Positions 1,601 through 44,160 of a DNA stretch of 44,287 nt are shown here, in pieces. The notes under the pieces are model-generated. The model was given only the letters and a program-made list of their open reading frames with translations. It was not told the DNA's origin and searched no databases. Numbering within the stretch: the first letter of the stretch is position 1; each line of letters opens with the position of its first letter. The position numbers and the translations under genes were made by a program. Origin of the DNA: an uncultured Ruminococcus sp. (GTDB taxonomy: Bacteria > Bacillota > Clostridia > Oscillospirales > Acutalibacteraceae); the NCBI GenBank assembly GCA_902763835.1, contig CACWTQ010000024.1:1-44287 (forward strand). Reading direction: 5' to 3'.

Positions 1601-1800
1601 GTTAAAGTTTGGTCAAGCTTTTCAAAGCTTGCGGATTCCAAAGGCAGAGCCTTTGGTCGCTGACGAAACCAACTTGCAAAGAAAAACAAACTACCCTCAG
1701 CGAAACTGAACGAACTATCAAAAGCAAAAAATAAAAGCATATACCTAAAATGTATCTTTCGGTTAAAATCAAACTTGTTTCCGGCGGACGTTGTCCGCTG
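1601..1800 (+). repeat. Family A structured intergenic repeat, copy 1 (short form)
   Basis: It begins with GTTTGGTCAAGCTTTTCAAA, followed by a perfect hairpin CCAAAGGC-AGA-GCCTTTGG at 1638-1656, then CGCTGA (about 1658) and its partner TCAGCG (about 1698). The right end is the GCGGACGTTGTCCGC palindrome at 1784-1798 (family D), which lies inside the 3' end of the convergent asparaginase gene. The GGAACACC/GGTGTTCC arm of the long form is missing. Confidence 0.85.
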
Positions 1801-2815
1801 TTTCGTAAAACAAATTGATTTCAATAATATCTTTTCTATATTTAACATCAACCGCATACGCAAGCATAACCTTACAATATGCAGCAGGAGTGTTAATATT
1901 ATACAAAGGTATTATCCAAGAATTTTCCATACCCTCAACAGACTTATATTTGTATTCACTGTTCTTAACCGAATACACAAACACATCTACTCCGTTTTCA
2001 AAACATCTTTCCGCAAATTTCGGAAATGCCGTACCTGTGCCGTCATTACAAAACGTTGCAGAATGATACAATTTCAGCAAAACGGCAGACTTCCCCGATA
2101 TGTCAACAGCGTTAAAATCCATTCCCACATAGCTGTGCAGAAGTAAAACATCATTGCGGAAATGCACTTTTCCTTTTCTAAGGAAAGCCGTCTTTTCATT
2201 GGGCATTGTGAGTTTTGGGTTAATGTCGGCTACAGTCCGCTTAAAATGATTGTTTTTAATGACACCGAACTCCGCACCGCCCCAAGATGTAAAGCTGTCA
2301 AGGTAACCGTCCGCTTCGTTAAGTCTTGTCGAAACGTACACCTTTACAGATTCACCCTTATTTTTCCATACGGTAAACACACCCATATTATTATGCAGAC
2401 CGTTCACAAAATCGGAAATAAAATCAATTGACGCTTTAAAATTCTCCGTGCCGTTGCTTTTAGGGAGGGTCAGCACATAATCCGCTGCCGTGATTACAAC
2501 AGGAATTCTCACCCACGAAAGAACAAGTCCGAGCATAGCAGAGGTATATGCAAGAGTGTCACTTCCGTGAGTTATTATCACACCGTCATATTTTTCATAA
2601 TCTATATCCAGCATAAAATTACATATTCTTGTTAAGGTGTCACAATTAGCATTTTCGCTCAGAATATTAAAGGTAGAGAGATATTCAAATTCTGCGTTAT
2701 CGTAATCACTGCATATATCTAAAAGAATTTTTGAAGCTTCGCCGTCAACATCGGCAATTCCGTTTTTAACGGTACTTCCTATAGTTCCGCCTGTAAATAC
2801 AACTAAAATTTTCAA
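1769..2815 (-). CDS. Asparaginase-family amidohydrolase
   Basis: A 348-residue protein of the bacterial L-asparaginase/glutaminase family. The first nucleophile motif is TGGTIGS at residues 9-15. The second conserved block is ITHGSDTLAYTSAML near residue 85, where canonical HGTDT has become HGSDT, a conservative change. No signal peptide, so it is likely a cytoplasmic type I enzyme converting Asn to Asp plus ammonia. Translation starts at TTG (2815) behind AAAGGTGAT; no suitable ATG is nearby. The last dozen or so residues, including ADNVRRKQV, are encoded by the family D palindrome and the end of family A copy 1, so the original stop has been replaced by repeat sequence. Activity is presumably unaffected. 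Confidence 0.85.
   Translation of the reverse strand: MKILVVFTGGTIGSTVKNGIADVDGEASKILLDICSDYDNAEFEYLSTFNILSENANCDTLTRICNFMLDIDYEKYDGVIITHGSDTLAYTSAMLGLVLSWVRIPVVITAADYVLTLPKSNGTENFKASIDFISDFVNGLHNNMGVFTVWKNKGESVKVYVSTRLNEADGYLDSFTSWGGAEFGVIKNNHFKRTVADINPKLTMPNEKTAFLRKGKVHFRNDVLLLHSYVGMDFNAVDISGKSAVLLKLYHSATFCNDGTGTAFPKFAERCFENGVDVFVYSVKNSEYKYKSVEGMENSWIIPLYNINTPAAYCKVMLAYAVDVKYRKDIIEINLFYETADNVRRKQV
1784..1798. repeat. Family D palindrome inside the 3' end of the asparaginase gene
   Basis: GCGGACGTTGTCCGC, with arms GCGGAC and GTCCGC. Same palindrome at 3913-3927, 6193-6207 and 22791-22805, with degenerate copies near 6427, 22946 and 42328. Confidence 0.8.
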
Positions 2816-2834
2816 CTCTTATCACCTTTCTAAA

Positions 2835-2876
2835 AACCGGCAATGCCGGACGAAAATCGGTCGGGAGACCCCGACG
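2835..2876. other. Two small GC-rich hairpins upstream of the asparaginase gene
   Basis: CCGGCAATGCCGG and CGGTCGGGAGACCCCGACGG lie side by side just upstream of the asparaginase ribosome-binding site. The GGCAATGCC core also occurs at 6219-6233 in the repeat-derived tail of the Nudix gene. They may be part of the family D unit or a leader structure. Confidence 0.5.
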
Positions 2877-2928
2877 GGCAAATCGCACTTTAATTTTTTA
2901 TTGCCGTTAGTTTTGTATCTGCGTATAA

Positions 2929-3039
2929 AGGAACTGTCAGAAAATAACTTGAACATTTATACTTGTCTAATTTGCCCTGTGTGTCGTTACAACACCTTGA
3001 AATACGTCAGTATTCCTGCGGTGTTTCCCAACAGTTCCA
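2929..3039 (-). repeat. Family B inverted-repeat element, long form
   Basis: Bounded by AGGAACTGTCAG and CAACAGTTCC, with the shared segment GAACATTTATACTTGTCTAA and a central module (GTCGTTACAACACC, ATACTGACGTATT in reverse) also seen at 9154-9246 and 39332-39447. It abuts the stop codon of the small membrane-protein gene at 3043. Confidence 0.8.
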
Positions 3040-3042
3040 AAG

Positions 3043-3561
3043 TTATTTTTTACGAAAGTTTACAAAACGATATGAAAACACGGTATATATTATCGGCACG
3101 GCAAGCACTGTCACAAACATTACTATGTAAAAGAATGTCGACGAACTTTTAGACATTATCAGCGACAAGTAAGATATTCCGCCCAATACGCTGACAATAA
3201 TACCGCACACAAACGGTGCAAAGATAAAGCGTTCTGCCCAATTTGAGTATTCCTTTTCGATATACTTTTTCTTGTTTGCACCCACAGCGATAATTATTCC
3301 CACAATTCCGGCAATTATTTGAACAATCGTTAAAACATTTACGGAAAGATTAAAAACGGCTATGACATCATTAATCTTTGATAAAAACCCTGTCCACGTG
3401 CCAACCTCGGAATAATCGACATTAGACTGTGCAATATCGCTTACTGTGCCGATAATTCCCACGGCTTTTCTTATAAGGATTAAAACAAAGTTGAGAAGAC
3501 CGCATATTATCAAAGCGATTGACGATATAATAACTCTGGCGGTATAGGGTAAAGTTGACAT
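3043..3561 (-). CDS. Small four-helix membrane protein, function unknown
   Basis: A 172-residue hydrophobic protein with about four predicted membrane helices: residues 7-30 (ARVIISSIALIICGLLNFVL), about 70-95, about 112-135 and about 142-165. A charged KKKYIEKEY loop lies between helices 2 and 3. The start ATG at 3561 has a good GGAGG seven bases upstream. The reading frame closes just at the edge of a family B element, so the extreme C-terminus (NFRKK) may have been reshaped by it. No catalytic motif or known family is recognised. It stands alone, with repeats on both sides. Confidence 0.7.
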   Translation of the reverse strand: MSTLPYTARVIISSIALIICGLLNFVLILIRKAVGIIGTVSDIAQSNVDYSEVGTWTGFLSKINDVIAVFNLSVNVLTIVQIIAGIVGIIIAVGANKKKYIEKEYSNWAERFIFAPFVCGIIVSVLGGISYLSLIMSKSSSTFFYIVMFVTVLAVPIIYTVFSYRFVNFRKK

Positions 3562-3699
3562 AAAAAACCTCCGATATTCAATTATAGTATGATTATATCA
3601 CAAACCTCTAAAAATAGCAATTCTTTAAATAGAATTAATATAAGAACGTTTAAACAATAATTTAGAAATTATACTCAAAATATAAAAGAATTATCTTTG

Positions 3700-3962
3700 A
3701 AAAGTTTGGTCAAGCTTTTCAAAGCTGATTGGGAGGTGTTCCTAGTGTTCTTGCACCAGCAGGGGCAGAGTCCTGCTTCCTGACAAAAGCAACATGCAAA
3801 GAAAAGCAAACTACCCTCAGCGAAATTAAATAAAATTTTTTTAAAGCAACCCTTAAAATAATATCTTTCGGTTTAAATTATACTCAAGATTAAAAAGATT
3901 TACCATTTTCCTGCGGACGTTGTCCGCCGAACAGTTCCTAAACCTTAACGCTTTAGAGTATA
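3700..3962 (+). repeat. Family A structured intergenic repeat, copy 2
   Basis: It starts AAAGTTTGGTCAAGCTTTTC, but the left arm of the GGAACACC hairpin is deleted (it runs straight into GCTGATTGGGAGGTGTTCC). The hairpin AGCAGGGGC-AGA-GTCCTGCT and the CTACCCTCAGCG box are present. A family D palindrome lies at 3913-3927, and the far end reads TTAACGCTTTAGAGTATA, matching the outer end of copies 3 and 8. Confidence 0.85.
3913..3927. repeat. Family D palindrome
   Basis: GCGGACGTTGTCCGC, identical to the copy at 1784-1798, inside family A copy 2. It is followed by a scrap of a family B end (GAACAGTTCCTAAA). Confidence 0.75.
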
Positions 3963-4157
3963 ACACCAAAAAATCAAATTATGAATAAATGTCAAATTCA
4001 CAACTTTTATATTGTAAAGAACTCAATTTTATATTATAATAAAATATAATGCTGGGCAACGCTTGCAAGAGAAAAACAAAGATACAGCATCTTTTATAAT
4101 TTAACTTTGATTAGTAATATTAAAAAAACTTAAATATAGATTTTAACAAAGTAATCT

Positions 4158-4227
4158 AAAATTACCGCAATAAATCAACTATTGGTCGGGTGCGTGAAAT
4201 CAGGCTACAAAAGACTATCTTCACGTG
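4158..4227 (+). repeat. Family E repeat directly upstream of the DHHW-like gene
   Basis: Shared blocks are ACCGCAATAAATCA, TCGGGTGCGTGAA and ACTATCTTCACGTGT, in the same order as at 42449-42525 and in reverse at 6238-6309. It ends about ten bases before the ribosome-binding site of the gene at 4255, so it probably forms that gene's leader or promoter region. The stretch 3963-4157 is AT-rich with nothing else recognised. Confidence 0.65.
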
Positions 4228-4254
4228 TTAAAAATAAAAAGGAGATACTTTTTT

Positions 4255-5469: not shown

Positions 5470-5506
5470 TAAAGTCAGAAACAATAATTATATAGGAGGT
5501 GACAGT

Positions 5507-6235
5507 ATGCTTGGCAAAAAGCTTGATGTTAAGGTAGTTGCGGCTATTCCTTATGCCGGACTTTACAGCGGATATTATATGGTCGGAAACCGCAGGCGGA
5601 ATATTTATCTTATCTCAAAGGACAAGCCGAGAGATTATGTTCACTGCACTGTAATTGCAATGGTTCAGGCAAGAAATTCCACTCAGACCAAGCTTATTGC
5701 CGCCCCGGAGGGTCAGATTTATTATGAGCCGCTTATCAAGAAGCGACTTCGCCGTTTACGAAATTTCAGAGTTGGCAGAATAAGCTGCCTGTATGAAAAA
5801 TCGTGCGGAGCAATAGTTTTTTACAGAGCCCCCGACGAAGTTAAAGTTTTGCTTGTAAAGAATAAAAACGGAAGATACTGGTCGTTTCCGAAAGGTCACG
5901 TTGAACTGGGCGAAAACGAACGTCAGACGGCTATGCGTGAGATAAAAGAGGAAACAGACCTTGATGTTAAGATTCACCCGGGATTCAGGGAAACAAGCGA
6001 CTACTGCCCGTTTGGAAAGGTTCGCAAGAGAGTTGTCTTTTTCCTTGCTGAAGCTTACTCGGATAAAGTGCATATTCAGGAAAGTGAGATTGATTATTTT
6101 ATCTGGGTATCGTTTCAACAGGCACGTGAAATGTGCTGTTACGAAAACGATTTACGGGTTATCGACAAAGCCGAACGCTACCTAGGCGGGCGGCGGACAA
6201 CGTCCGCAGGAGATATGGTCGGCAATGCCGACTGA
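5507..6235 (+). CDS. Nudix hydrolase with pyrophosphatase-like N-terminal domain
   Basis: A 242-residue protein. The Nudix box lies at about residues 130-154 (GHVELGE, then REIKEETD), with all metal-binding glutamates present; the usual Gly after EE-x is Asp. Residues 1-85 resemble the strand pattern of family I inorganic pyrophosphatases as found in clostridia, notably HCTVIAMVQARNSTQTKL followed by IAAPEG, but the catalytic Asp cluster is not evident. The start ATG at 5507 has GGAGGTGA right upstream; the frame is open further upstream only by chance. The C-terminus from about residue 227 (GGRRTTSAGDMVGNAD) is read from a family D palindrome and the adjacent GGCAATGCC hairpin. Substrate unknown; a nucleoside or dinucleotide polyphosphate is typical. 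Confidence 0.85.
   Translation: MLGKKLDVKVVAAIPYAGLYSGYYMVGNRRRNIYLISKDKPRDYVHCTVIAMVQARNSTQTKLIAAPEGQIYYEPLIKKRLRRLRNFRVGRISCLYEKSCGAIVFYRAPDEVKVLLVKNKNGRYWSFPKGHVELGENERQTAMREIKEETDLDVKIHPGFRETSDYCPFGKVRKRVVFFLAEAYSDKVHIQESEIDYFIWVSFQQAREMCCYENDLRVIDKAERYLGGRRTTSAGDMVGNAD
6193..6233. repeat. Family D palindrome forming the 3' end of the Nudix gene
   Basis: GCGGACAACGTCCGC at 6193-6207 is followed by AGGAGATATG and the hairpin GTCGGCAATGCCGAC, ending at the gene's TGA. Compare GGGCAACGTCCGCAGGAGAT at 42331-42350. Confidence 0.8.
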
Positions 6236-6237
6236 AA

Positions 6238-6309
6238 ACACGTGAATACAGTCTTTTTAAGAATAACTTCATCTACCCGACCACAAATTTATATTAATGC
6301 GGTAGTTTA
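6238..6309 (-). repeat. Family E repeat, reversed copy
   Basis: ACACGTGAATACAGTCTTTT, then CATCTACCCGACC and ATTAATGCGGTAGTTT: the reverse complement of the blocks at 4158-4227 and 42449-42525. It lies immediately after a family D unit, as the half copy at 42350-42397 does. Confidence 0.65.
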
Positions 6310-6379
6310 AGAGTAACTTTATTTTATACAATAACAACTATATTTAATACCTTTTGTTTGACCTATTAATATTTGTTTT

Positions 6380-6656
6380 ATACTCGAAAGCGTTAAGATT
6401 TAGCACTTTTCTTTCTTAGAACGGCAATTCGGCAGACAACGTCAGCAGAAAAATGGTAAATCTTTTTAATATTGAGTATAATTTTGCTGAGGGTAGTTTG
6501 ATTTTCTTTGTATGCTGCTTTTGTCAGCGAACAGGGCTCTGCCCCTGCATGGTGCAATACCACTAGGAACACCTGCCAATCAGCTGTCGCCTACAGCTCG
6601 GCTTCTTGGAGTGTTCCGTCGCCCGAAAGCTTTGAAAAGCTTGACCAAACTTTAAA
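6380..6656 (-). repeat. Family A structured intergenic repeat, copy 3 (long form)
   Basis: Outer end TACTCGAAAGCGTTAAGATT; a degenerate family D palindrome (GGCAGACAACGTCAGC) near 6431; then the AGA-loop hairpin (GGGGC-AGA-GCCC on the minus strand) and the GGAACACC...GTGTTCC arm enclosing an inner stem AGCTGT/ACAGCT. It closes with AAGCTTGACCAAACTTT. It fills most of the 6236-6712 gap; the short AT-rich remainder holds nothing else seen. Confidence 0.9.
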
Positions 6657-6712
6657 ATGCTAAATCTTTTATATTTTCAGTATATCAATAAACCTAAAAA
6701 AGGGGAATTATA

Positions 6713-7123
6713 ATGATTTATTGTTTAATTATTACAGACCTAAATTTATCGTATAATAACCATTTTGAGAATTTTAATATCGGGTATTTTACTTCATACG
6801 AAAAGGCTCTCGAAACTGCAAACAGATATTTAACCGATATTAAGGGGTTTAACGAATATTCTTGCAAATATGACATCACAGAAAAACCGATATCCGATTT
6901 TAACTCTCGGACATCAGCTGATGAAATATTTATTGTTTTCGGTTGGAATGTTAATGATAATCTTGATGAAACGGATATTGTCGAAAGTGATTGTTTTGTT
7001 TCATATAATACTGCATTGCAGGAACTTGATAATATGAAACTAAAGTATCATCGAAATGAATGGTGCATAGATAAATATAAGCTTGACGAATGTGAATGGG
7101 CGAACGGTTTCACTAGAGTATGA
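6713..7123 (+). CDS. Small hypothetical protein (136 residues)
   Basis: A soluble acidic protein of 136 residues with AAAAGGGG about seven bases before the ATG at 6713. The C-terminal half has the pattern TALQELDNMKLKY, then WCIDKYKLDECEWANGF. That resembles small proteins of unknown function ending in an 'IDEYELDE-x-x-W-x-x-GF' signature (DUF7336-like, from memory). The N-terminal half has a similar pattern (YEKALETANRYL), so it may be a short internal duplication. It is 15 bases upstream of the endonuclease III gene and probably co-transcribed with it. No function is proposed; gene status is supported by the ribosome-binding site and spacing. Confidence 0.65.
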   Translation: MIYCLIITDLNLSYNNHFENFNIGYFTSYEKALETANRYLTDIKGFNEYSCKYDITEKPISDFNSRTSADEIFIVFGWNVNDNLDETDIVESDCFVSYNTALQELDNMKLKYHRNEWCIDKYKLDECEWANGFTRV

Positions 7124-7138
7124 TTGGAGAAATAATAT

Positions 7139-7777: not shown

Positions 7778-7791
7778 AATTTTTGAAATTA

Positions 7792-7860
7792 GGAACTGTT
7801 TGGAAATAAGTTGAACAAATTAGACAAGTATAAATGTTCAAGTTATTTTCTGACAGTTCC
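7792..7860 (+). repeat. Family B inverted-repeat element, short form
   Basis: A 69-bp near-perfect long hairpin: GGAACTGTTTGGAAATAAG pairs over about 26 bases with the reverse complement at the right end (TTATTTTCTGACAGTTCC). Flanked on both sides by TTA (7789-7791 and 7861-7863), a possible target duplication. It may also terminate nth transcription. Confidence 0.85.
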
Positions 7861-7943
7861 TTACTATTCACAACTTAAGAAAAGTTAAAAGCTTACATTA
7901 TAACACTTTTTGACAAACTTATAGTTTCAATGCTTTTTACATA

Positions 7944-7973
7944 TTGACACACATATAAAAAAAAGCGTATAAT
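7944..7973 (+). promoter_or_regulatory. Promoter of the SGNH lipoprotein gene
   Basis: TTGACA (7944-7949), an 18-base spacer and TATAAT (7968-7973): both boxes match the housekeeping sigma consensus. About 30 bases separate the -10 from the start codon at 8007. Confidence 0.85.
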
Positions 7974-8006
7974 TATAATTGCCAAATAATCAAAGAGGTG
8001 TTTTTG

Positions 8007-8972: not shown

Positions 8973-9041
8973 GTTACTATTCGTAATTTGTAATGCGTAA
9001 TTGTGACAGGCGGAAATCGCTCTTTCTTGGAAAGTATAAAT

Positions 9042-9083: not shown

Positions 9084-9153
9084 TTTTAAGAATCCCTATT
9101 TGCACAGTGTTGTTATTTTGGATTTTGAAACTCGCTTTATTATGCTATTCTTT

Positions 9154-13225: not shown

Positions 13226-13236
13226 ATTAATCCTCC

Positions 13237-20804: not shown

Positions 20805-22787
<1,983 letters not shown>

Positions 22788-22790
22788 TTA

Positions 22791-22805
22791 GCGGACAACG
22801 TCCGC
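22791..22805. repeat. Family D palindrome in the gyrB leader
   Basis: GCGGACAACGTCCGC about 36 bases upstream of the gyrB start. A degenerate copy (AGCAGACAATGTCCGCC) lies at about 22943-22959 in the same 278-base gap. Confidence 0.75.
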
Positions 22806-22971
22806 TTGAAACATTTCAAGATATTTATTTTTTTATTTACTTAATGCACCTGAATAATAAAAAAATATTTGATACACACATATTGACTGTTTGCTAATAA
22901 CAATTTGATTTTAACAAATAAAAAATCAGACTCTGATTAGCAAGCAGACAATGTCCGCCAAAATACGGAGA

Positions 22972-23423: not shown

Positions 23424-26400
23424 TTATAACAATTCGTCCGCTTCCTGCTCTCTTTTTTTCTTTTTCTGAGAAACCTTTGAACGAACATTATTCACTTCCT
23501 TAAGGCTTACGCTGCCGGGGTCACGCTTTTCCTCAAGCTTTTTTCGTGCATCCTGATTTCTGCGAACCTGCTTAACCTGTTCACGTCTAATCTCTTCAGC
23601 CTTTTCAAGACGTTCGTTTTGGAGCTGTTTTTCCCTGCGTTTTTTCTCTTTGCGAACTCTCTGTTCTTCCTGCTCGGTTTTAAGCTTCTCAATTTTCTCC
23701 AAACGTTTTTCTTCGTCAACCTTTTCGGAGATAATCTTCACCTTTTCAGCTTCGGTAACTTTCTTATTTTCAAGCTCCTTAACCTTATCCTTAACGCTGT
23801 CAAGCACAATTTTCTCCTGAAGCTCGTATTCCTTGGTGACTGTTTTTTCTGAATTTTCAAAAACAATAGTCTTGCCGTCTGCAGGAAGATTTGAAAGAAT
23901 TTTCACCTTATTTTTCTCAATTCTCTTTGTTTTTTGAGATTTTCTTTTTCTCTCCTCGGCATCTTCCTTTGACTTACTCTCAGACTTTTCGCCTCTTACT
24001 TTCGTGGTATTAACCTCGGCATTCGCCTTAGCTTTTTCTTTGAGCTTTTCAGCTTTCTCCTTGTCTTTTTCCTTAGCCTTTCGGCGAGCTTCTCTCTCGG
24101 CAAGCTTTCTTTCACGCTCTTCCTCTTCAAAAGCCGCCTGACGTTCTTCCTCCGTAGCCTCAATGATTTTATTTTTCAAACCTGAGAAAAATCCCGTCTT
24201 CTGCTCCTGAACCTTTGATGTTTCCTTTGGTTTAGGAGTTTCTTTTTTCTGAACATCTTTCGACTTCACGGAATCACTTTCGGATTTTTTCTTTTTAGCC
24301 TTGTTTGCGGATTTAGCCTTTTGCTGCTCTTTCTTACTTTTCAGTTCAGAAACCGCTGCTTGTTCGGCAGCCGCCTTTGCAGCATTCGGGAATTTTTTCT
24401 CGTAATGAGAAGTTTTTTTTGGCTCGTCTATTCTGTTTCCACTTGAATCGATTTTCACAGGAATAATCGGCTCTGCATTGACTGTTTCTTCAATTGGTTT
24501 CTCCTCAATGCTTTTTGCACGGAACTCTTCCAAATTGAAATTCTCGTCCAATTGTTCGCCGCTTGAAATATCCTCAAATTCCTCAGATTTATCGGAGGAA
24601 TAATCGATTACAAAACTATCCTCGATTTCCTCTTCGGGGATATACTCAATTGCACCCTCGACAGTTTCTGTTACAAGAATATCTTCATCATCTTCCTCAG
24701 AAAATTTGAAATATTCTTCGTCCTCTTTATAGGCGTTTTCTTCTACGGAAACATTTTCTTCTTTGGAAACGTTATCTTCCTCGGGAATATCATCGTTTTC
24801 CTCATCAAACTTGTAATAATTCTCGTCCTCTTCGGAAAATTCTTCGTCCTCAATTTCTGGAACATCGTCATCTTCGGAAACATTATCTTCCTTGGGAACA
24901 TCATCGTTTTCCTCGTCGAACTTGTAATAATCTTCGTCCTCTTCGGAAAATTCTTCGTCCTCAATTTCTGGAACATCGTCATCTTCTTCATTGAACTTGT
25001 AATAGTCTTCATTTTCTTCGACATTTACAGACTCGTCTTCTGCCTCAATTTCCTTATCGCCAATCTCACCGTACATAAACTCTTCCGGCTTGAAGATTTC
25101 GATTTCCTCGTCCTCTACTTCCTTTTCGGGAATTTCTACGCTTTCCAATTTGACATTTACAACATCGTTGGCAACAGTGTCATAATTCATTTCAAATTTT
25201 GTTTCCGGTGAAATATTATTTTTAACAGAAGTATTTTGAACGGAAATATTTTGGAGTTCAATTTCCGTTACCTCGGATAAAGCTTCGTCTTCATCGGGTT
25301 CATTTGCGGTGTTATCGGATTCGGAAGATTCATTGATAATATCTTCTTCTGTTTCCAAATCAGAGGAAAATTCAATAATTTCATCAACTTTAACTTCTTC
25401 ATCGGGCAAATCGTCTTTAAATTCAATAATCTCCTTGGGCTTCTCTACAGAATTCTTATCGGATTTTCCGGACTTATCGAAATTGAAAACACTATCACTT
25501 TTTATTTTTGAAACATATTTTGAAAATAAACCAAACTTATGTTTTTCCTTTGTTTCACCTTTGTTATCGGAAGGAATTTCAATATTTTCCGATACAGCTT
25601 TTTCTTCAGGATTGTCGTCTGCTATATTCTGTGAAAATATTTCATATTCGGATTTATAATCAATCTCGTCATTTACAACCGGGTCAATCAAATTTCCGGT
25701 ATCGAAATTAGCTTTCTCAGGTTTAAGACCAAGCTTCGAAGATTCGGCTGAAAATACATTCCATTCAAATCTTATCGGATTTTTTTCAAAAAGCTTTTCG
25801 TCAAGCTCCGATAACGTTTTTTTTGAATCCTCAACAATGATAACGGGCAGCTTATCTTCAAATTCATAATCAACAAAACTATCCTTTGTTTCGATATTAT
25901 CCTGAGAATTTTCTTCACTTTCGGCAATATCAAAATTCACATCGGACAGACTTATAATATTATTCGTATCGGATTTTTTAGGTTCACTAAAACTCAAAGT
26001 AATAAAATCGCCTTTTTCGTGAGCATAATCGACCCAATCATTGTCAATATTTTCGGAAACATCGTCTGTAACATTTGCTTTCTGAACATCTATGCTTTGA
26101 ATTTCAGAAATGTTTTTGTCAACTTGTTCATCATTTTTATCGGCAAAGAAGTTGACAATTTCACGATTTTCTTTTTCGTCCTTTTCTGCTTCAATCGCTT
26201 TTTCTACAACCATTTCTATTGCTTCTGTAATTTCATTGTTACTATCCTGAGCAGCAATTTCAACAGTTTCTGTTTTGAGTTCATCAGCAACTGTTTTGGC
26301 AGTTTCGTTTTTCGGTTGGATAGTGACTGTTTCGACAGCTTCGTTTTCCGTTTTGTCAACAATTGTTTCAACAATTTCGGAATTAACTTCTTCCGCTGTA

Positions 26401-27685: not shown

Positions 27686-27717
27686 CAAAAATCCTCCGAT
27701 AAAAATTTAGTTGTTAA

Positions 27718-28152
27718 GTTTGCGAAGCCTTTAAAAAGTTTGGTCAAGCTTTTTAAAGCTTATGGGCGACGGAACACCTCAATCAGTCAAGTTGTTAGGT
27801 GCAGACTGATTGGCATATGTTCCTAGTGGTCTTGCACCATTCAGGGCAATGTCATCAACTTAGCGTAATATACACTAATATCGTTTTTCTAAATGACTGA
27901 ATTTTAGTGGATAAAAAGTATCAAAGACAATACTATGCTTAATCCGTTTTTTCTTAAGTTGATGACATTGCCATTCAGGGGCAGAACCCCCGCTACGCTG
28001 ACACAACAAATCAGCGTAGAAAATAAACTACCCTCAGCAAAACTAAATAACCTATCAACAACGAAACAAAAATAACACACATCAAAAAAATATCTTCTGT
28101 CACAAACCACAAAGGCAAGATCAATGCGAATTGACGGTCAAAGAAAAAACAA
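27718..28152 (+). repeat. Family A structured intergenic repeat, copy 4 (long form, interrupted)
   Basis: It begins GCGAAGCCTTTAAAAAGTTT; the GGAACACC arm encloses an inner stem CAATCAGTC/GACTGATTG that differs from other copies yet still pairs. After CACCATTCAGGG it is interrupted by the 124-bp element, resuming as GGGGCAGAACCCC, then CTACGCTGA/TCAGCGTAG. The far end AATTGACGGTCAAAG corresponds to AATTGCCGGTC in other copies. Confidence 0.85.
27847..27970. mobile_element. 124-bp MITE-like element with 10-bp target duplication
   Basis: Terminal inverted repeats of 16 bases, CAATGTCATCAACTTA at the left and its exact reverse complement TAAGTTGATGACATTG at the right, flanked by CCATTCAGGG at 27837-27846 and 27971-27980. 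Comparison with the other family A copies shows the unbroken target would read CACCATTCAGGGGCAGA, so the 10-bp duplication is real. No coding capacity; the size of the duplication fits an IS4-like transposase acting in trans, which is inference. Confidence 0.85.
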
Positions 28153-28587: not shown

Positions 28588-28857
28588 CGTTTTCTTTCTT
28601 TGACCGGCAATTCGCTACGCTGTTGCCTGTTTTGGTTTTTATGGAAAGATATTGTTTTGAGAAGTGCTTTGTTTGCTATTGCTGGTTTGTTTATACTCGA
28701 AAATGAAAACATTGAGCAAGTGTCTAGCAATATCAATTTTTATAAAGGCTTGACAGTTCAATTTCAAATGTAAGAAAAATATAATTGCTAGCGGGGCCCT
28801 GCCCCTGCACCCCGCAAGCTTTGAAAAGCTTGACCAAACTTTAACAGGCTTCGCACA
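28588..28857 (-). repeat. Family A structured intergenic repeat, copy 5 (short, diverged)
   Basis: Left end TTTCTTTCTTTGACCGGCAA, then CGCTACGCTGTTGCCTG and a scrambled middle. Right end on the minus strand: GCGGGG-tgcaggggcagg-g-CCCCGC hairpin and GCTTTGAAAAGCTTGACC, then the outer CTGTTAAAG/GCGAAGCC. The long GGAACACC arm is absent. It ends just beyond the recF stop codon. Confidence 0.75.
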
Positions 28858-31914: not shown

Positions 31915-32096
31915 TTTTTGTTTCGCTGCGGGAAGTTTATTCTTCTACGTTGATTTGTTGTGTCAGCAAGCAGGACTCTGCCGCTGTCGGTGCAAGACCA
32001 CTAGGAACATCTCCCAATCAGCTGTCGCCTGCGGCTCGGCTTTCTTGGGGTGTTCCGTCGCCCGCAAGCTTTTCAAATTTTGACCAAACTTTGAAA
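31915..32096 (-). repeat. Family A structured intergenic repeat, copy 6 (left part missing)
   Basis: It keeps TTTCGCTGCGGGAAGTTTAT, the AGA-loop hairpin (weakened here), GGAACATC/GGTGTTCC with inner AGCTGT/GCGGCT arms and the end CAAGCTTTTCAAATTTTGACC. The outer TACTCGAAAGCG end is absent. It lies 36 bases past the dnaA stop codon, beside oriC. Confidence 0.8.
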
Positions 32097-32131
32097 AGGT
32101 GATTTTTTTACTTTAATAAAGAAAAAAATAC

Positions 32132-33715: not shown

Positions 33716-33966
33716 TAAGAAAAATAAGGATAAATGTTAAAAAAGTTCGATTCAACCTAAAATTTACGGATTTTTTTTCAAGGAAATTCACTGTATTTTA
33801 ATGAATAAAGGGGATTTTTGATGAATTTTAAGGTTAAAATAATGATAATAAATGCCTGATAAAAAATAATTTTGTCTAAAATATAGAAAACGTAATTCAT
33901 ATATTGACATTTTGCCGAAATTTATTTAAATTTATAGATAGAATAGGAAAATAAAGCTTTTGATTA

Positions 33967-34037
33967 AGGGACTGTTTGGAAATAAGTTGAACAATTTAGA
34001 CAATTATAAATGTTCAACTTATTTTCTGACATTTCCT
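33967..34037 (+). repeat. Family B inverted-repeat element, short form
   Basis: AGGGACTGTTTGGAAATAAG to TTATTTTCTGACATTTCCT, a diverged copy (one change in each terminal repeat) of the 69-bp form at 7792-7860, with the same long hairpin. It sits between dnaA and rpmH. The rest of 33602-34108 is AT-rich with no DnaA boxes seen. Confidence 0.8.
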
Positions 34038-37207: not shown

Positions 37208-37221
37208 TGCCTTTTTATGAG

Positions 37222-37252
37222 TGCGGAGGTAAAATATTGCTTCCGCATTTTT
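37222..37252 (+). terminator. Terminator of the rpmH-khpB cluster
   Basis: TGCGGA (37222-37227) pairs with TCCGCA (37242-37247), followed by TTTTTG; 14 bases after the khpB stop codon. Confidence 0.75.
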
Positions 37253-37263
37253 GTAACTTATAG

Positions 37264-37542
37264 GTAAGCGAAGCCTGTTAAAGCTTGCGGGCGACGGAAC
37301 AACCCAAGAAGCCGAACCGCAGGCAAAAGCTGAGATTGGTAGGTGTTCCTAGTGGTCTTGCAACATCGGGCAGAGCCCTTGTCGCTGACGAAATCAATTT
37401 GCAAAGAAAAACAAACTACCCTCAGCGAAATTAAACGAACTATCAACAAAGAAACAAAAAATTAAAAACACACATCAAAAAAGTATACTTCGACACAATC
37501 CAAAATAAGCAACAGTTAAGCGAATTTCCGGTCAAAGAAAGA
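37264..37542 (+). repeat. Family A structured intergenic repeat, copy 7
   Basis: It begins GCGAAGCCTGTTAAAGCTTG: the GTTTGGTCAAGCTTTTCA segment has been lost precisely between two AAAG words. Then GGAACAACC...GGTGTTCC, the hairpin GGGC-AGA-GCCC, CGCTGA/TCAGCG and the end GCGAATTTCCGGTCAAAG. The following 37543-37921 is very AT-rich with no recognisable feature. Confidence 0.85.
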
Positions 37543-37921
37543 CAAACATATGATTATAATTCAACAATACAGTTTTACATAAAAATAGCTGTGTTTTAAA
37601 GTATTATTTAAAAAATAAATGATAAATAATTATTTGATTGTGTTTATTTTTAATATTGATGTTTTTTGTATTATTAATAATGTAAATAAATAGAGTATAT
37701 TGATAAATAAATTAATCTTTTTTATTAATTGAATTTTATTTTCCAACACAAACGAGTAAAGATTGAATAACAGAGTATACAAAAGCAAACAGAAGCAAAT
37801 AAAAGGAAATTAAAGATTTTTAACTTTTGAATTACGATTCTGTAACGTGTTTTTTGATTATTATAATACAATTTTATAAATTTGTAACTAGTGATTTTAT
37901 ATAACTAAATGAGGTATTAAT

Positions 37922-39286: not shown

Positions 39287-39292
39287 TACACT

Positions 39293-39710
39293 ATACTCGA
39301 AAGCGTTAAGATTTAGCACTTTTCTTTCTTAGGAACTATTGGGAAATAAGTTGAACAATTTAGACGCAGGAATACTGACAGGTGTTGTAACGACACATAG
39401 GGCAAATTAGACAAGTATAAATGTTCAAGTTATTTTCTGACAGTTCCTTAGACCGGCAATTCGCTACGCTGTTGCCTGTTTTAGTTTAAACCGAAAGATA
39501 TTATTTTGAGGGTTGCTTTAAGAAAGTTTATTTAATTTCGCTGAAGATAGTTTGCTTTTCTTTGCGTGCTGCTTTTGTCAGCGAGCAGGACTCTGTCCCT
39601 GCTGGTGCAAGACCACTAGGAACACCGCCCAATCAGTCTACGCCTAACGGCTTGATTTCTTGGGGTGTTCCGTCGCCCGCAAGCTTTGAAAAGCTTGACC
39701 AAACTTTAAC
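39293..39710 (-). repeat. Family A structured intergenic repeat, copy 8 (full length, with nested family B element)
   Basis: The most complete copy. Minus-strand order: GTTAAAGTTTGGTCAAGC, GGAACACC/GGTGTTCC arm, the hairpin GGGAC-AGA-GTCC, CAGCG box, CGGTTTAAAC, GGCAACAGCGTAGCGAATTG, and the outer end TCGAGTATA. A family B element (39332-39447) interrupts it at TTA. Reading between mnmE and mnmG, it fills the whole gap. Confidence 0.9.
39332..39447 (+). repeat. Family B inverted-repeat element, long form, inside family A copy 8
   Basis: GGAACTATTGGGAAATAAG ... TTATTTTCTGACAGTTCC with the central module (ATACTGACAGGTGTTGTAAC). TTA flanks both sides (39329-39331, 39448-39450). Comparison with A copy 3 (CTTTCTTAGAACGG) and copy 5 (CTTTCTTTGACCGG) shows a single site in uninserted copies. 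Confidence 0.88.
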
Positions 39711-39753
39711 ATTTTTTGCTTTATGAGTATATTTAATTTTGGAGTGATAAATT

Positions 39754-41613
39754 TTGAGTTATTTTGCAGGTAAATTTGATATTGCCGTTATCGGTGCAGG
39801 TCATGCAGGCATTGAAGCCGCACTCGCTTCTGCACGTCTTGGCTGTAAAACGGCAGTATTTACTATAAATATGGACGCAGTCGGAAATTGTCCGTGTAAT
39901 CCGTCAATCGGCGGTACGGCAAAAGGTCATCTTGTAAGAGAGATAGATGCTTTAGGCGGTGAAATGGGCAAGACGGCAGATGAATGTATGTTGCAAATGA
40001 GAATGCTGAACAGAGGAAAAGGTCCGGCAGTTCATTCTCTTCGGGCACAGATAGACAGACGTAAGTACAGTGAATTAATGAAACACAAACTGGAGCTGCA
40101 GGAAAATCTTGAGCTTCACCAAGCCGAAATTGTCAAACTTGACGAGTGCGGTGATGTTTGGAAAGTCACCACAAGAATGGGAGCGGAGTATGAGGTCAAA
40201 GCGGTTATCATTGCAACAGGTACATATCTCGGCGGCAGAATTTATATTGGTGAGGTTTCTTATGACAGCGGTCCGGACGGAATTTTCCCGGCTACATTTT
40301 TGGGGCAATCTTTGAAAGATTTGGGTCTTTCGCTTAGGAGATTCAAGACAGGTACTCCTGCAAGAGTTCTGCGTTCAAGCATTGATTTTTCGGAGCTTGA
40401 AGAACAGTCGGGAGATGAACCTATAGTTCCGTTTTCTTATGATACAGAGGACGAGCTTGAAAACAAGGTTGTATGTCATATAAGCTGGACAAACGAAAAA
40501 ACAAAACAAATTATTCTGGATAATATTCACCGCTCACCTCTTTACAGTGGTATGATTCACGGTGTAGGTCCCCGATATTGTCCGAGCTTGGAAGATAAAA
40601 TTGTAAGGTTCAGCGACAAGGAACGCCATCAGCTTTTTATTGAGCCTTGCGGAGAAAATACGGAGGAGATGTATCTTCAGGGTATGTCTTCCTCATTGCC
40701 CGAAGAAGTTCAGCTTGCGTTTTATCATTCTATAAAGGGTCTGGAAAATGCGGTAGTTATGCGTCCTGCATATGCTATTGAATATGATTGTGTAGATCCG
40801 TTGCAGATGAATAACACTCTTGAATTCATTGAACACCCCGGTTTGTACGGTGCAGGACAGTTCAACGGTTCATCGGGTTACGAAGAGGCGGCGGCACAAG
40901 GATTGGTTGCAGGAATAAATGCGGCTTTGAAAATCAAAGGTGAAGAGCCAATGATTTTAGACCGTGCCGGTTCGTATATTGGAACTCTTGTTGACGACCT
41001 TGTTACAAAAGGTGCAAACGACCCTTACAGAATGATGACATCACGAAGCGAGTACAGATTGATTTTACGTCAGGATAATGCCGATGAGAGATTAACTCCA
41101 ATTGGAAGAAGAATCGGTTTGATTTCCGATACGAGATATGAAAAGTTTCTCGAAAAGCAGGAGTTGAAAAAACAGGAGATTAAGCGTATTAAGAGTAAAG
41201 TTATAGCACCGTCGGAGGAGATTAATGCCATTCTTGTTTCATGTGAAACATCTCCGATTAGTACGGGTGTTAAGCTTGTCGATTTGATAAAGCGTCCTCA
41301 GCTTTCGTATGATGTGCTGAAAGAAATTGACACGGATAGACCCGATTTGAATCCGAATATTTTTGAGCAGATTGAAGTAGAAGTAAAGTACGAGGGATAT
41401 ATAAAGAAACAGCTTGCTCAGGTTGAGCAAATGCGGAGAATGGAAACTAAGCTGCTGCCGCCCGACATTGACTACAGCACTATCACAGGGTTACGGCTTG
41501 AAGCACAGGAAAAGTTGAACAAGGTTCACCCAAGCAATCTGGGTCAGGCGAGCAGAATTTCGGGCGTTAGTCCTGCGGATATCAGCGTACTTGTAATTTG
41601 GTTGTCGAGGTGA
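39754..41613 (+). CDS. mnmG: tRNA uridine 5-carboxymethylaminomethyl modification enzyme MnmG (GidA)
   Basis: A 619-residue FAD enzyme, partner of MnmE. The dinucleotide-binding motif is VIGAGHAGIEAALASARLG at residues 12-30; the catalytic-site segment CNPSIGGTAKGHLVREIDAL follows at about 48-67. Other family blocks: RRFKTGTPARV, EPCGENTEEMYLQGMSSSLP, PAYAIEYDC and the C-terminal RISGVSPADISVLVIWL. The start is TTG 39754 with GGAGTG eight bases upstream; no ATG is nearby. rsmG begins five bases after the stop codon. Function is secure. Confidence 0.97.
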   Translation: MSYFAGKFDIAVIGAGHAGIEAALASARLGCKTAVFTINMDAVGNCPCNPSIGGTAKGHLVREIDALGGEMGKTADECMLQMRMLNRGKGPAVHSLRAQIDRRKYSELMKHKLELQENLELHQAEIVKLDECGDVWKVTTRMGAEYEVKAVIIATGTYLGGRIYIGEVSYDSGPDGIFPATFLGQSLKDLGLSLRRFKTGTPARVLRSSIDFSELEEQSGDEPIVPFSYDTEDELENKVVCHISWTNEKTKQIILDNIHRSPLYSGMIHGVGPRYCPSLEDKIVRFSDKERHQLFIEPCGENTEEMYLQGMSSSLPEEVQLAFYHSIKGLENAVVMRPAYAIEYDCVDPLQMNNTLEFIEHPGLYGAGQFNGSSGYEEAAAQGLVAGINAALKIKGEEPMILDRAGSYIGTLVDDLVTKGANDPYRMMTSRSEYRLILRQDNADERLTPIGRRIGLISDTRYEKFLEKQELKKQEIKRIKSKVIAPSEEINAILVSCETSPISTGVKLVDLIKRPQLSYDVLKEIDTDRPDLNPNIFEQIEVEVKYEGYIKKQLAQVEQMRRMETKLLPPDIDYSTITGLRLEAQEKLNKVHPSNLGQASRISGVSPADISVLVIWLSR

Positions 41614-41617
41614 TAAA

Positions 41618-42322
41618 ATGGAAAGATTAAGAAATTACTGCAATGAGTTTGGGATAACTCTTGATGATACAGCGATTTTCAGATTTGAAAAATATATGCG
41701 TACCGTTTTGGAGTGGAACGAGAAAATCAATCTTACATCAATAACGGACGAGAACGAGTTTATCATCAAGCATTTTTACGACAGTCTTACCTTGCTACGC
41801 ACACTCGATATTAAAGAAGGTGCAAAAGTTATTGATGTCGGCACAGGGGCAGGATTTCCGGGAATTCCGCTGAAAATTGCCCGACCCGACATTAATCTTA
41901 CGCTTCTCGATAGTTTGAATAAAAGGCTTGTCTTTTTGCAGGAAAATGTTCTTACAACGCTTGATTTGTCAGCAAAGGTTATTCACGGCAGAGCAGAGGA
42001 GATTTCAAGAAGAGTCGATTACAGAGAAAAATTTGATTTTGCGGTGAGCCGTGCAGTTGCGAATCTTTCTTCACTGAGTGAATATTGCATTCCGTTTGTG
42101 AAAGTCGGTGGAGTTTTCACATCTATGAAAGGACCGGAAAGCAGCGAGGAAATCAAGCAAGCCTCTAATGCAATAAAGGTTCTCGGCGGTAAAGTGGACA
42201 TAGTTGAGAATCTGACATTGCCCGACGGCAGCGGAAGAAGTATTGTTGCGATTGACAAAATTAAGCATACTCCCGAAAAATATCCAAGACGTGGAGTTAA
42301 AATCAATAAAAATCCACTTTAG
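41618..42322 (+). CDS. rsmG: 16S rRNA m7G527 methyltransferase RsmG (GidB)
   Basis: A 234-residue S-adenosylmethionine-dependent methyltransferase acting on G527 of 16S rRNA. The N-terminal WNEKINLTSITDENEFIIKH precedes motif I VIDVGTGAGFPGIPLKIARP (about residue 70) and LTLLDSLNKRLVFLQ; FAVSRAVANLSSL is the catalytic-region block. It starts five bases after mnmG with GAGGTGA within the upstream stop region. The basic tail (KYPRRGVKINKNPL) is typical. Loss of this enzyme gives low-level streptomycin resistance in other bacteria. Confidence 0.97.
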   Translation: MERLRNYCNEFGITLDDTAIFRFEKYMRTVLEWNEKINLTSITDENEFIIKHFYDSLTLLRTLDIKEGAKVIDVGTGAGFPGIPLKIARPDINLTLLDSLNKRLVFLQENVLTTLDLSAKVIHGRAEEISRRVDYREKFDFAVSRAVANLSSLSEYCIPFVKVGGVFTSMKGPESSEEIKQASNAIKVLGGKVDIVENLTLPDGSGRSIVAIDKIKHTPEKYPRRGVKINKNPL

Positions 42323-42327
42323 CGGGT

Positions 42328-42525
42328 GGTGGGCAACGTCCGCAGGAGATAAGTGAAGATAGTCTTTTTAAGCGATAAATTTACGTACCCGACAGTGATA
42401 TAATTAGTTTTTGATTGTGATTGTTCTTTCACAAAAAAAAGTTGGTCAAAAACTACCGCATTGAATCAAGTCATCGATCGGGTGTATGAATTTTTGTATA
42501 TAAATAAACTATCTTCACGTGTAAA
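42328..42525. repeat. Family D/E composite element with inverted-repeat ends
   Basis: A degenerate D palindrome (GGGCAACGTCCGC) and AGGAGATAAGTGAAGATAGT at the left, then TACCCGACAG. The right half has ACCGCATTGAATCA, TCGATCGGGTGTATGAA and ACTATCTTCACGTGT. GTGAAGATAGT and ACTATCTTCAC are exact inverted repeats about 165 bases apart, so this may be one whole small element. The right half equals the family E unit at 4158-4227 and lies directly upstream of the ASCH gene. Confidence 0.7.
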
Positions 42526-42545
42526 AAAAGTATTAAAAAAAGAAG

Positions 42546-42900
42546 GTGTTATCCATTACAACACATAAAATGAATTTGTGCAGAAAGCCGTTTGATATGA
42601 TTGTAAGCGGTGAAAAAACTATTGAGCTTCGTCTTTACGATGAGAAAAGACAGCTTGTTAAAGTTGGTGACACTATAGTTTTTACCGATTTGGAAAATCC
42701 CGATAAAAAAATTATTACGGAAGTTATTTCGGTAAATGTGTTTAAGAGTTTTGCAGAGCTTTATAAAAATCTTCCTTGTTTTGAAATGTGGCTACAGACC
42801 GGGGGAGATTGCTTACCCCGATGATATGTTAAAGTATTACAGCCGTGAGCAGGAAGAGAAATACGGTGCAGTCGGAATAGAAATTAAGATTATACAATAA
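42546..42900 (+). pseudogene. ASCH-domain protein gene with a frameshift
   Basis: The first 86 or so codons encode an ASCH domain, a beta-barrel fold linked to RNA binding: KMNLCRKPFDMIVSGEKTIE, LRLYDEKRQLVKVGDTIVF and the FAELYKNLPCFEMWL segment. The frame then ends at 42824 with GGDCLPR, while the plus-one frame continues EIAYPDDMLKYYSREQEEKY and GAVGIEIKIIQ to a stop at 42900, which is the expected family ending. The break lies at GGGGG (about 42800); four Gs instead of five would restore one protein. It may be a genuine mutation or a homopolymer sequencing error. The start is unclear: GTG 42546 overlaps the AGAAGGTG site, ATG 42570 is 16 bases past it. Confidence 0.75.
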
Positions 42901-43006
42901 TCATAGAATTAAAAATTTTTTTCTCTCCCATATTTCGACACACTTTTCACAGCGAATGTGTTATTATATTATTGTAATCAATACAGACCGTTCGAGGTGA
43001 GCATAT

Positions 43007-43801
43007 ATGAGCAGCGGAAAAATTAAAGGCGAAAGTAAAATTTCAATGATTCCTGTATTTCAGATATCTGAAAATAAATCTCAGCCGAGAAAAAATTTTA
43101 ACCGTGAAGATATACGCTATCTTGCTCGAAGCATAGAGTTAAACGGAATTTTACAGCCGCTTATTGTCCGAGATGTTTCACCGTTTGAGTATGAGCTTAT
43201 TTCAGGTGAAAGAAGACTTCGAGCCGCAGTAATGGCAGGGTTCAGTTTTGTTCCTTGTATAATTCTGCATTGCAGCGAACATCAGTCGGCTGTTTATACT
43301 CTTATTGAAAATGTTCAGAGAGAAGATTTATCCTATTTTGAACAGGCAGAGGCTATACAGAAATTGATTAAAGAGTATGGCTTTTCCGTTGAGAAAGCGT
43401 CAAAGCAAATCGGAAAAAGCGAAGTCAGCGTCAGAAATAAGCTTAATCTTATTAAGTTTAGTGAAGAGGAAAGGAAACTTCTTATTGATAACCAATTGTC
43501 GGAGAGATATGCAACTGTCTTGATGAAAATTAAAAATACCGATATCAGAAAGAATGTTTTAAATAAAGTTATTGATAATAACCTGAATTTGTTTGATACA
43601 GAAGAGTTGGTTGAAAGAATGACCGACTCCGATAATAATAAAAATAATTCAAGACATCGTATTGTTATAAAAGATATTCGATTGTTTTACAATACTATCA
43701 ATAAAGCAGTATCTACAATGCGGCAGTCGGGAATAAATGCGACCGAGGAAAAAACGGAAACCGATGAGTTTGTTGAATATCGGATTCGCATTACTAAATG
43801 A
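43007..43801 (+). CDS. ParB/Noc-family chromosome partition or nucleoid occlusion protein
   Basis: A 264-residue ParB-fold protein. The N-terminal CTPase/parS-clamp region has ILQPLIVRDV and the ParB box GERRLRAA (about residue 68), then TLIENVQREDLSYFEQAEA. The helix-turn-helix at about 125-150, KASKQIGKSEVSVRNKLNLI, resembles Noc (NKLRLL) rather than Spo0J. The gene lies directly downstream of rsmG and the ASCH gene, the normal place of noc in Firmicutes. Start ATG 43007 has GAGGTGAG upstream. A strong terminator follows. Two exact parS sites lie about 370 bases downstream. ParB or Noc cannot be decided without the soj/spo0J genes, which may lie beyond the window. Confidence 0.9.
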   Translation: MSSGKIKGESKISMIPVFQISENKSQPRKNFNREDIRYLARSIELNGILQPLIVRDVSPFEYELISGERRLRAAVMAGFSFVPCIILHCSEHQSAVYTLIENVQREDLSYFEQAEAIQKLIKEYGFSVEKASKQIGKSEVSVRNKLNLIKFSEEERKLLIDNQLSERYATVLMKIKNTDIRKNVLNKVIDNNLNLFDTEELVERMTDSDNNKNNSRHRIVIKDIRLFYNTINKAVSTMRQSGINATEEKTETDEFVEYRIRITK

Positions 43802-43870
43802 TTTTTGCGTACTTCTATAATATCCATATACACATTTCTTCATACCCCTTTATTCGGCTATATCCCGAAG

Positions 43871-43919
43871 TCAAGAACCCGAGTGAGCATTTTGCTTGCC
43901 CGGGTTCTTGATTTAAAAT
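43871..43919 (+). terminator. Terminator after the parB/noc gene
   Basis: TCAAGAACCCG pairs with CGGGTTCTTGA, with an inner imperfect stem GAGCA/TGCTTGC, followed by TTTAAAATTTT. A large stable hairpin. Confidence 0.85.
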
Positions 43920-43936
43920 TTTATTTGCAATAACCC

Positions 43937-44160
43937 CTGTTAAAAGTTCGGTCAAGCCTTACAAGGCTTGCGGGGTGCAGGGGCAGAGCACCGCTCGCTG
44001 ACGAAACTAACTAGCGTAAAAAGAAGAACTACCCTCAGCGAAATTAAATGAACTATCAATAACGAAAAAATAAAACAATAAAATTAAACATAAAAATAAT
44101 ATCTTTCGATATAAATTAAAATAGGCAAAAGCAAAAAGAATTGCCGGTCGAAGAAATTAG
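43937..44160 (+). repeat. Family A structured intergenic repeat, copy 9 (short form)
   Basis: CTGTTAAAAGTTCGGTCAAG, a changed but still pairing end hairpin CAAGCC-ttaca-AGGCTTG, the hairpin GTGC-aggggcaga-GCAC, CGCTGA/TCAGCG and the end AATTGCCGGTCGAAGAAA. Confidence 0.85.

Follow-up and report, generated by a model that had tools for sequence, protein, structure and literature searches.

BOX elements of Streptococcus pneumoniae are small and modular, with modules that vary, a strong predicted secondary structure, terminal inverted repeats and target duplications; they occur in ~125 copies and insert into one another, as outlined in the part of PMC3049150 that deals with them. SPRITE repeats of the same species are enriched near the 3′ ends of genes and, according to that part of PMC3049150, are suggested to have been co-opted as terminators. 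Most repetitive extragenic palindromes (REPs) carry GTAG or CGTC tags, those with GTAG being associated with RAYT transposases (PMC3733652, in the portion considered here). Family A, described here, is a hairpin-rich intergenic repeat with nine copies in a 44,287-nucleotide stretch of DNA (the window) from an uncultured Ruminococcus sp. The window is contig C24 (CACWTQ010000024.1) of the draft genome G000 (assembly GCA_902763835.1; 2.74 Mb in 232 contigs), whose nearest relative by protein identity among the genomes compared is the sister species G007 (97% complete). NCBI places Ruminococcus in Eubacteriales, Oscillospiraceae; the order sampled for this work we take to be the Oscillospirales of GTDB. 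The repeat had been picked out in a sequence-only reading of the window, and the finding is real and larger than first noted.

Family A is likely to be a non-autonomous mobile repeat whose payload is made up of short hairpins in series (H1, H2, H3 and others by genus), with copies probably spread by borrowed transposition machinery. The core consists, from 5′ to 3′, of AAAGTTTGGT, H1 (CAAGCTTTTCAAAGCTTG), the linker GCGG, H2 with the tip GGCAGAGCC, a wider H3 (TCGCTGA...TCAGCGA) and an A-rich spacer, which in most full-length copies is followed by a 3′ hairpin, GGCAA...TTGCC, and then GGTC. The H3 loop in the window genus is ~34 nt long, and the arms are nonetheless paired. The arms of H2, the AGA hairpin, fall into three types among 112 genus copies: GCAGG (47), CCAAA (33) and CAAG (32). 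Long and short forms exist, as the sequence-only reading had proposed; the long form contains an additional hairpin, GGAACACC...GGTGTTCC, between H1 and H2, and 35 such modules are present in the fetched DNA of the two sister species (18 in G000 and 17 in G007). Their inner stems are AGC/GCT, AGTC/GACT or AATC/GATT; both versions reported from the window are there, and the third, AATC/GATT, is present in the sister species.

In the window genus the core occurs in two miniature-transposon shells, one with ends TATACTC...GAGTATA at TA sites and the other with ends TAGCTGTACGG...CCGTACAGNTA and 8-bp duplications. Sorted by their ends, 178 copies comprise 46 with the TATACTC type on both sides (15 in G000 and 31 in G007), 15 with the TAGCTGTAC type on both sides and 62 with neither, the rest being one-sided or mixed. 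TATACT is found in 40 and AGTATA in 43 of the 46, and inspection by eye shows direct repeats of ~8 bp in roughly half of the 15. Loci L050 and L060 are duplicates of L133 and were excluded from the counts of end types, arm types, long modules, terminator controls and flank mapping. Among ten empty-site alignments, two of which (L080 and L086) placed the element poorly, each shell is represented by one clear case: at L050 the element starts with TACTC and finishes with AGTA between TA flanks, with a 7-bp difference adjoining, and at L088 it is bounded by TAGCTGTACGG/CCGTACAGTTA with AAAAATCC on either side. Three marks of a miniature inverted-repeat transposable element (MITE) are present: terminal inverted repeats (46 + 15 of 178 copies), TA or 8-bp duplications with one clear empty site each, and no encoded protein.

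Insertion sites, which the sequence-only reading had suggested mapping between strains, are polymorphic between the sister species. When G007 copies were mapped by both flanks to fetched G000 DNA, 21 of 34 had no copy there (two of the 21 fall in one interval), and 9 of 23 G000 copies had none in fetched G007 DNA (three window hits with a counterpart share one G007 interval). The interval was shorter by at least 150 bp at 12 of the 21 and 7 of the 9 copy-less sites; the others hold sequence of similar or greater length. It is because of the ends, the duplications and the polymorphic sites that we infer transposition. The earlier statement that the repeats are not simply decaying mobile DNA is not supported in the form given: the genus repeats look mobile, since they have inverted termini, duplicated targets and insertion sites that differ between the sister species, though they are more than decaying remnants.

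TATACTC ends are also found around hairpin cargo of quite another kind and around short deletion forms. That one core sits in two unrelated shells, and that one shell carries several cargos, is the most unusual feature of the family. At L041, L079, L085 and other G007 loci, TATACTC ends surround a distinct hairpin cargo (CCCCTCTGTCCTGCGGACATCTCCCCTATGAGGGGCGAC), which represents another repeat family using this shell.

Covariation was assessed within the genus and across genera. The genus alignment (A2) retained short copies from 27 of 30 loci, L020, L024 and L026 being left out as rearranged or incomplete. Four base pairs in it have two-sided changes, against 2.2 in shuffles (16 of 500 shuffles were as high), and 28 cells have such changes, against 10.5; pair types show no excess (8 versus 8.3). 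The pairing evidence within the genus is moderate and mostly due to the H2 types. Because the AGA hairpin of the genus has three discrete arm types, the paired arm changes claimed from the window prove to be mostly block differences between subtypes with few independent substitutions, although the stems do stay paired as their arms change.

Across genera the signal is strong. A sequence-only alignment with one relative per genome (A3) kept 24 of 28 loci (L222, L227, L233 and L234 were omitted, the third hairpin being missing or of another type), and 96.4% of its cells pair. Two-sided changes affect 17 of 25 base pairs (11.5 in shuffles) and 115 cells (33 in shuffles), and the covariation score is 0.50, compared with 0.18 for shuffled alignments and 0.18 or less when partners are slid; further pair types show no excess (35 versus 33.2). 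The A3 loci were found with a structure model and could lean towards paired sequences, so a search was made with a sequence-only profile, itself built from A3. In 20 loci of seven other genomes it found 44 copies, nearly all paired. For the 40 near-complete copies among them, pairing within the same copy exceeded pairing between copies in H1 (0.99 versus 0.82), H2 (0.98 versus 0.81) and H3 (0.97 versus 0.75), and 28 distinct H3 5′ arms were present. With 40 further loci included, the values were 0.997 versus 0.813 for H2, 0.973 versus 0.744 for H3 and, with some rows misaligned (as seen in G116), 0.938 versus 0.768 for H1; over the 12 other genomes the test used 74, 72 and 80 of 93 copies. In genome G134, 10 of 14 distinct H3 stems are perfectly paired. 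Structural covariation across the order is well supported.

RNA stems tolerate G-U pairs. In the genus, G-T and A-C combinations were found 4 and 4 times in 1147 cells of H1 and 6 and 3 times in 1007 cells of H3; in H2 they numbered 8 and 30 in 817 cells, most A-C cells coming, as we read the rows, from one recurrent form that is perfectly pairable with a bulged A. The corresponding counts in the 12 other genomes were 4 and 2 of 576 for H2 and 1 and 1 of 640 for H3 (5:3 for the two together, or 5 of 1216 G-U), and 15 and 12 of 666 for H1, where some rows are misaligned. As controls, 23 tRNA genes of the fetched loci contain 44 G-U among 486 pairs (only standard pairs were marked, so there is no A-C count), terminator-like hairpins gave G-T and A-C in a ratio of 30:19 and chance hairpins in one of 121:118. 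The stems thus show no G-U excess as a sign of RNA, in a test whose power is low, given that terminator-like hairpins reach just 30:19. With G-U so rare, the stems look like near-exact DNA palindromes, which fit the counts at least as well as RNA selection does; strong RNA stems such as terminators may avoid G-U too, so an RNA function is compatible. Of the claim of selection for an RNA or cruciform structure, the paired stems and the strong covariation are borne out, but selection on RNA is not specifically shown, the hairpins being near-exact Watson–Crick palindromes in which G-U pairs are scarce. The pairing may be kept by RNA, by DNA or by templated copying.

Templated copying would consist of arm-to-arm correction of quasi-palindromes, together with gene conversion among copies, and would preserve complementarity without any selection for structure. 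It would account for arms that vary widely and yet are mostly exact (28 H3 5′ arms in 40 copies; 10 of 14 perfect H3 stems in G134), for the scarcity of G-U pairs and mismatches, and for the whole-block differences at orthologous sites described below. It does not by itself explain why tip and linker sequences (such as GGCAGAGCC, GCGG, CCGCAG and CGAAA) are found again across genera; the pairing of H3 in the window genus, with its loop of ~34 nt, also counts against it, and we regard it as possible but somewhat improbable.

Such block differences were seen when 11 sites shared by the sister species were compared. The pairs L151/L045 and L197/L102 are near-identical throughout. At L205/L086 the flanks and the outer 5′ end are common, one copy being short with a CAAG-type H2 and the other long with a GCAGG-type H2; L208 and L067 occupy the same site and differ in form and outer end; and L204 and L094 have common flanks and a common H1–H2 region with different inner blocks. 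Two of the 11 comparisons (L174/L043 in part, and window copy 6/L133) seem not to represent the same insertion. Replacement of entire modules by those of other copies is the best reading of these differences, although a second insertion at the same site may be an alternative source. Whole-module replacement would allow both arms of a hairpin to change at once, and may in this way explain part of the joint arm changes within the genus.

The position of the copies relative to genes bears on a cis-acting RNA role. In codirectional gaps, sense copies outnumber antisense ones 26:12 in G000 and 39:17 in G007 (together 65:29, P = 2.6e-4), 26:10 in the 12 other genomes (P = 0.011) and 91:39 in all genomes pooled (P = 6e-6), values whose certainty is overstated, as the binomial test takes copies as independent; the genes are simple open reading frame (ORF) calls. 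Copies at contig or stretch edges (16 of 78 in G000, 21 of 97 in G007 and 3 of 93 in the other genomes) were excluded from these counts. In the sister species, 20 copies lie in convergent gaps and 19 in divergent ones; for the other 12 genomes the figures are 26 and 4. Sense copies start a median of 37 nt past the upstream stop codon in G000 and 56 nt in G007, and in G134 12 of 14 start no more than 24 nt past it. Behind many G134 copies come further hairpins and then a terminator-like hairpin with a T tail, and seven facing pairs of copies, ~400 bp or less apart, flank such stretches (the terminator scan covered one pair). In the window genus, the sense side of the core has by eye no T tail.

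The core could accordingly be an RNA element forming a structured mRNA 3′ end (terminator, processing or stability) and selected for RNA pairing, with mobility secondary. The sense bias, the location behind stop codons, the arrangement of the G134 copies with their T-tailed hairpins and facing pairs, the 26 convergent versus 4 divergent gaps and the covariation of all three hairpins speak for this explanation, to which we give a chance somewhat short of even. It sits less well with the rarity of G-U pairs in H2 and H3 (5 of 1216, versus 44 of 486 in tRNA genes, by a weak test), with the 39 of 130 codirectional-gap copies that are antisense and with a patchy distribution in which 256 of 295 genomes of the order have no match. 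That the repeats are ordinary intrinsic terminators recurring by convergence is barely credible: hairpins do lie behind genes, and in some genera the final hairpins are T-tailed, but copies are 72–79% identical across 200 bp and more, have transposon-like ends, include antisense copies and, in the window genus, lack by eye a T tail on the sense side.

Several points weigh against a mobile repeat. Besides the overstated certainty of the strand bias and the even split of convergent and divergent gaps in the sister species, 62 of the 178 copies show neither end type; 9 of the 21 and 2 of the 9 copy-less intervals are not much shorter, so that such sites were replaced rather than empty; and ends and empty sites were examined in the window genus only. 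Searches limited to the DDE_3 (IS630-type) and Y1 families returned no transposase with matching ends. The DDE_3 search found a single gene in G000 and none in G007; as an IS630-type parent it is not convincing, lying in a 2,024-base stretch that is cut by a contig end and lacks TATACTC, with a lone GAGTATA ~1 kb upstream. Y1 transposases were found in 3 of 10 genomes, including G000 (two hits), and none was found in G007, G134, G116, G047, G055, G156 or G251, which have many copies each, although a gene may have been missed (G007 is 97% complete).

An element of the REP/RAYT type, in which a Y1 transposase moves palindromes as single-stranded DNA, would share with family A a palindromic, extragenic, high-copy character and a frequent location behind genes, and G000 does have its two Y1 hits. 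Y1 transposition is not known to make target duplications, however, so the TA and 8-bp duplications do not fit, and seven copy-rich genomes including G007 have no Y1 hit; this origin is very unlikely.

For the mobile repeat with a hairpin payload that we favour, transposases would act in trans on the shell ends and spread copies, recombination between copies would reshuffle entire hairpins, and the hairpins would be maintained as near-exact palindromes. They might be kept since an insertion right behind a gene becomes harmless or useful (through a structured 3′ end, termination or RNA stability) or, alternatively or additionally, since the spreading machinery handles hairpin DNA itself. A bolder version, which we offer tentatively and think doubtful, is that the three-hairpin core is an order-wide genetic module older than its shells and the cargo of unrelated transposition systems, a DNA-level process (hairpin recognition or arm-to-arm copying) keeping its arms exactly palindromic while their sequence drifts almost without constraint between copies.

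The covariance model and genome search suggested in the sequence-only reading were carried out with a model built from the 27 short copies (R1) and a structure model built from one relative per genome (R2). R1 gave 78 matches at E 0.01 in the 2.74 Mb of G000, a few copies matching twice. At E 0.001 it matched 15 of 21 congeners, with 1 to at least 101 matches per genome; the upper figure is from G007, in which 101 candidates were scored. Among other genera, 1 of 18 genomes gave a weak match. In a draw of 295 genomes across the order, R1 matched 29 and R2 matched 39, the latter belonging to 27 of 148 genera and often holding at least 16 copies per genome, with 256 genomes lacking an R2 match. 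R2 matched 5 of 398 genomes across the phylum, namely the genome of origin, three more from the order and, with a weak match, one from elsewhere; both draws used stricter filters that lose weak matches. As far as sampled, the family falls within one order and is patchy inside it. Draft contig ends of G000 fall inside family A copies (for example, L156 5826, L164 7562 and L170 1), and the true copy number is therefore probably above the count.

A phage or plasmid element was considered and set aside: with a relative's sequence as query, 1 of 50,697 phage records matched, covering 38% of that query, and plasmid records gave nothing; a window copy, searched in phage records only, had no match. 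A strict motif was found in 7 viral contigs. Four records of the SAR324 cluster (L042, L053, L063 and L092) have 25 bases of the H1 region in common with the family, set in a hairpin array that otherwise differs and has a terminator-like hairpin last; these repeats have 5 and 2 exact copies in two genomes, and common origin, convergence or misbinning are possible.

A coding repeat was ruled out by ORFs that are mostly short and on either strand over the copies, in line with the earlier view that no coding frame is conserved. Copies lie inside ORFs in 24 of 93 cases in the other genomes and in 2 of 78 and 3 of 97 in the sister species. Of those 24 ORFs, 22 have 91–144 codons; those at L286 and L291 are longer and overlap the copy at one end. 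As in the sequence-only reading, no named RNA family was recognised in a search of Rfam 15 at gathering thresholds, with 0 matches in the window and, in loci of other genomes, tRNA only (six loci of four genomes). A search of open-licence literature by subject and by core motif found no description of the family.

All nine window copies reported by the sequence-only reading are present, five on the + strand and four on the − strand, the position given there for − copies being the 3′ end of the copy. A sequence profile from the 27 short copies recovers all nine, the best piece of each having an E value between 1.7e-29 and 4.9e-9 and copy 4 appearing as two pieces; copies 1 and 9, being among its sources, are recovered by construction. 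Copy 1 (1601–1774, +) is a short form with H1, a CCAAA-type H2 and H3, without the 3′ hairpin; a different palindrome follows, and the orthologous interval in G007 has no copy. Copy 2 (3670–3962, +) lies inside a TATACTC shell with its 5′ end at 3670 and its 3′ end at 3962, has a partly deleted H1–H2 region and is absent from G007. Copy 3 (6379–6684, −) is a long form with TATACTC-type shell ends on both sides, and the G007 site is nearly empty (43 versus 451 bp). Copy 4 (27710–28150, +) is a long form with the inner stem CAATCAGTC/GACTGATTG, interrupted by a 128-bp element (27845–27972, no strand assigned) with inverted ends GGCAATGTCATCAACTTA and ATTCAG on either flank. Copy 5 (28590–28850, −), directly after a recF-like ORF, retains H1, H2 and the 3′ hairpin, with other DNA replacing the middle. 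Copy 6 (31915–32100, −) is a long form downstream of a dnaA-like ORF in the sense orientation. Copy 7 (37255–37545, +), a long form with H1 mostly gone, lies between jag-like and mnmE-like ORFs and is absent from G007. Copy 8 (39292–39731, −) is a long form in a TATACTC shell, contains another repeat (~39331–39447) and also has no copy in G007. Copy 9 (43938–44160, +) is a short form with H1 at 43953–43970, H2 at 43977–43994, H3 from 43995 to ~44041 and the 3′ hairpin at 44124–44145. Pieces have been lost from copies 1, 5 and 7.

The AGA-loop arms read from the window are seen as AAAGGC-AGA-GCCTTT in copy 1, GGGGC-AGA-GTCC in copy 2 and GGGAC-AGA-GTCC in copy 8. The CGCTGA/TCAGCG pair is also present and is near-invariant, six of the seven base pairs of the TCGCTGA/TCAGCGA helix being constant in 27 copies. 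The arm pair GGAACACC/GGTGTTCC, in contrast, is exact on both sides in copy 8 only; one arm is altered in copies 3, 4, 6 and 7, and copy 2 retains the 3′ arm alone.

The window genes presumably represent a replication-origin region, with gyrA, gyrB, recF, dnaN, dnaA, rnpA, yidC, jag, mnmE, mnmG, rsmG and a parB-like gene, named by recognition of their translations. Imperfect tandem repeats occupy 24679–25020 within a 1313-amino-acid acidic ORF. Another repeat family, bounded by the inverted ends AGGAACTGT...ACAGTTCCT, has several copies, at 7782–7862, 33958–34037, 39322–39448 and 2928–2997, some of them inserted in family A copies. A small palindrome, GCGGACAACGTCCGC, and its variants occur at 6186–6215, 22784–22813 and 42322–42351 and near copies 1–3; they are intergenic and are also found within TATACTC-ended elements.

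Family A is an apparently undescribed and very abundant addition to the repeats of gut and rumen clostridia, and explains some of the contig breaks at repeat ends and spurious short ORFs in such genomes. Its copies are a natural collection for tracing compensatory change, the exchange of modules and transposition within one genome, and with such a collection the question of why palindromic repeats remain palindromic becomes testable.

Among described systems, SPRITE repeats are comparable in their location close to gene 3′ ends, and differ in being terminator-like, as far as the relevant part of PMC3049150 goes, whereas family A is a chain of hairpins that in the window genus has, by eye, no sense-side T tail of its own. 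REP/BIME (PMC3733652) and REPIN (see PMC3116915) sequences are likewise high-copy extragenic palindromes; unlike REPs as treated in PMC3733652, family A is abundant in G007 without a Y1 hit and shows duplications of 2 and 8 bp. With MITEs in general (see PMC10969869) it shares a non-coding character, inverted ends, target duplications and polymorphic sites; its payload, however, is a separable cassette that covaries order-wide, and the DDE_3 and Y1 searches found no parent insertion sequence. The closest likeness is to BOX, with which family A has in common modularity with an optional inner module, predicted structure, inverted ends and target duplications (PMC3049150, in the part on BOX). It differs from BOX in having at least three short-loop hairpins with freely changing arms, in its spread over 27 of 148 sampled genera and in one core placed between two kinds of ends. 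Judged by architecture, the family would best be read as a modular hairpin cassette resembling pneumococcal BOX.

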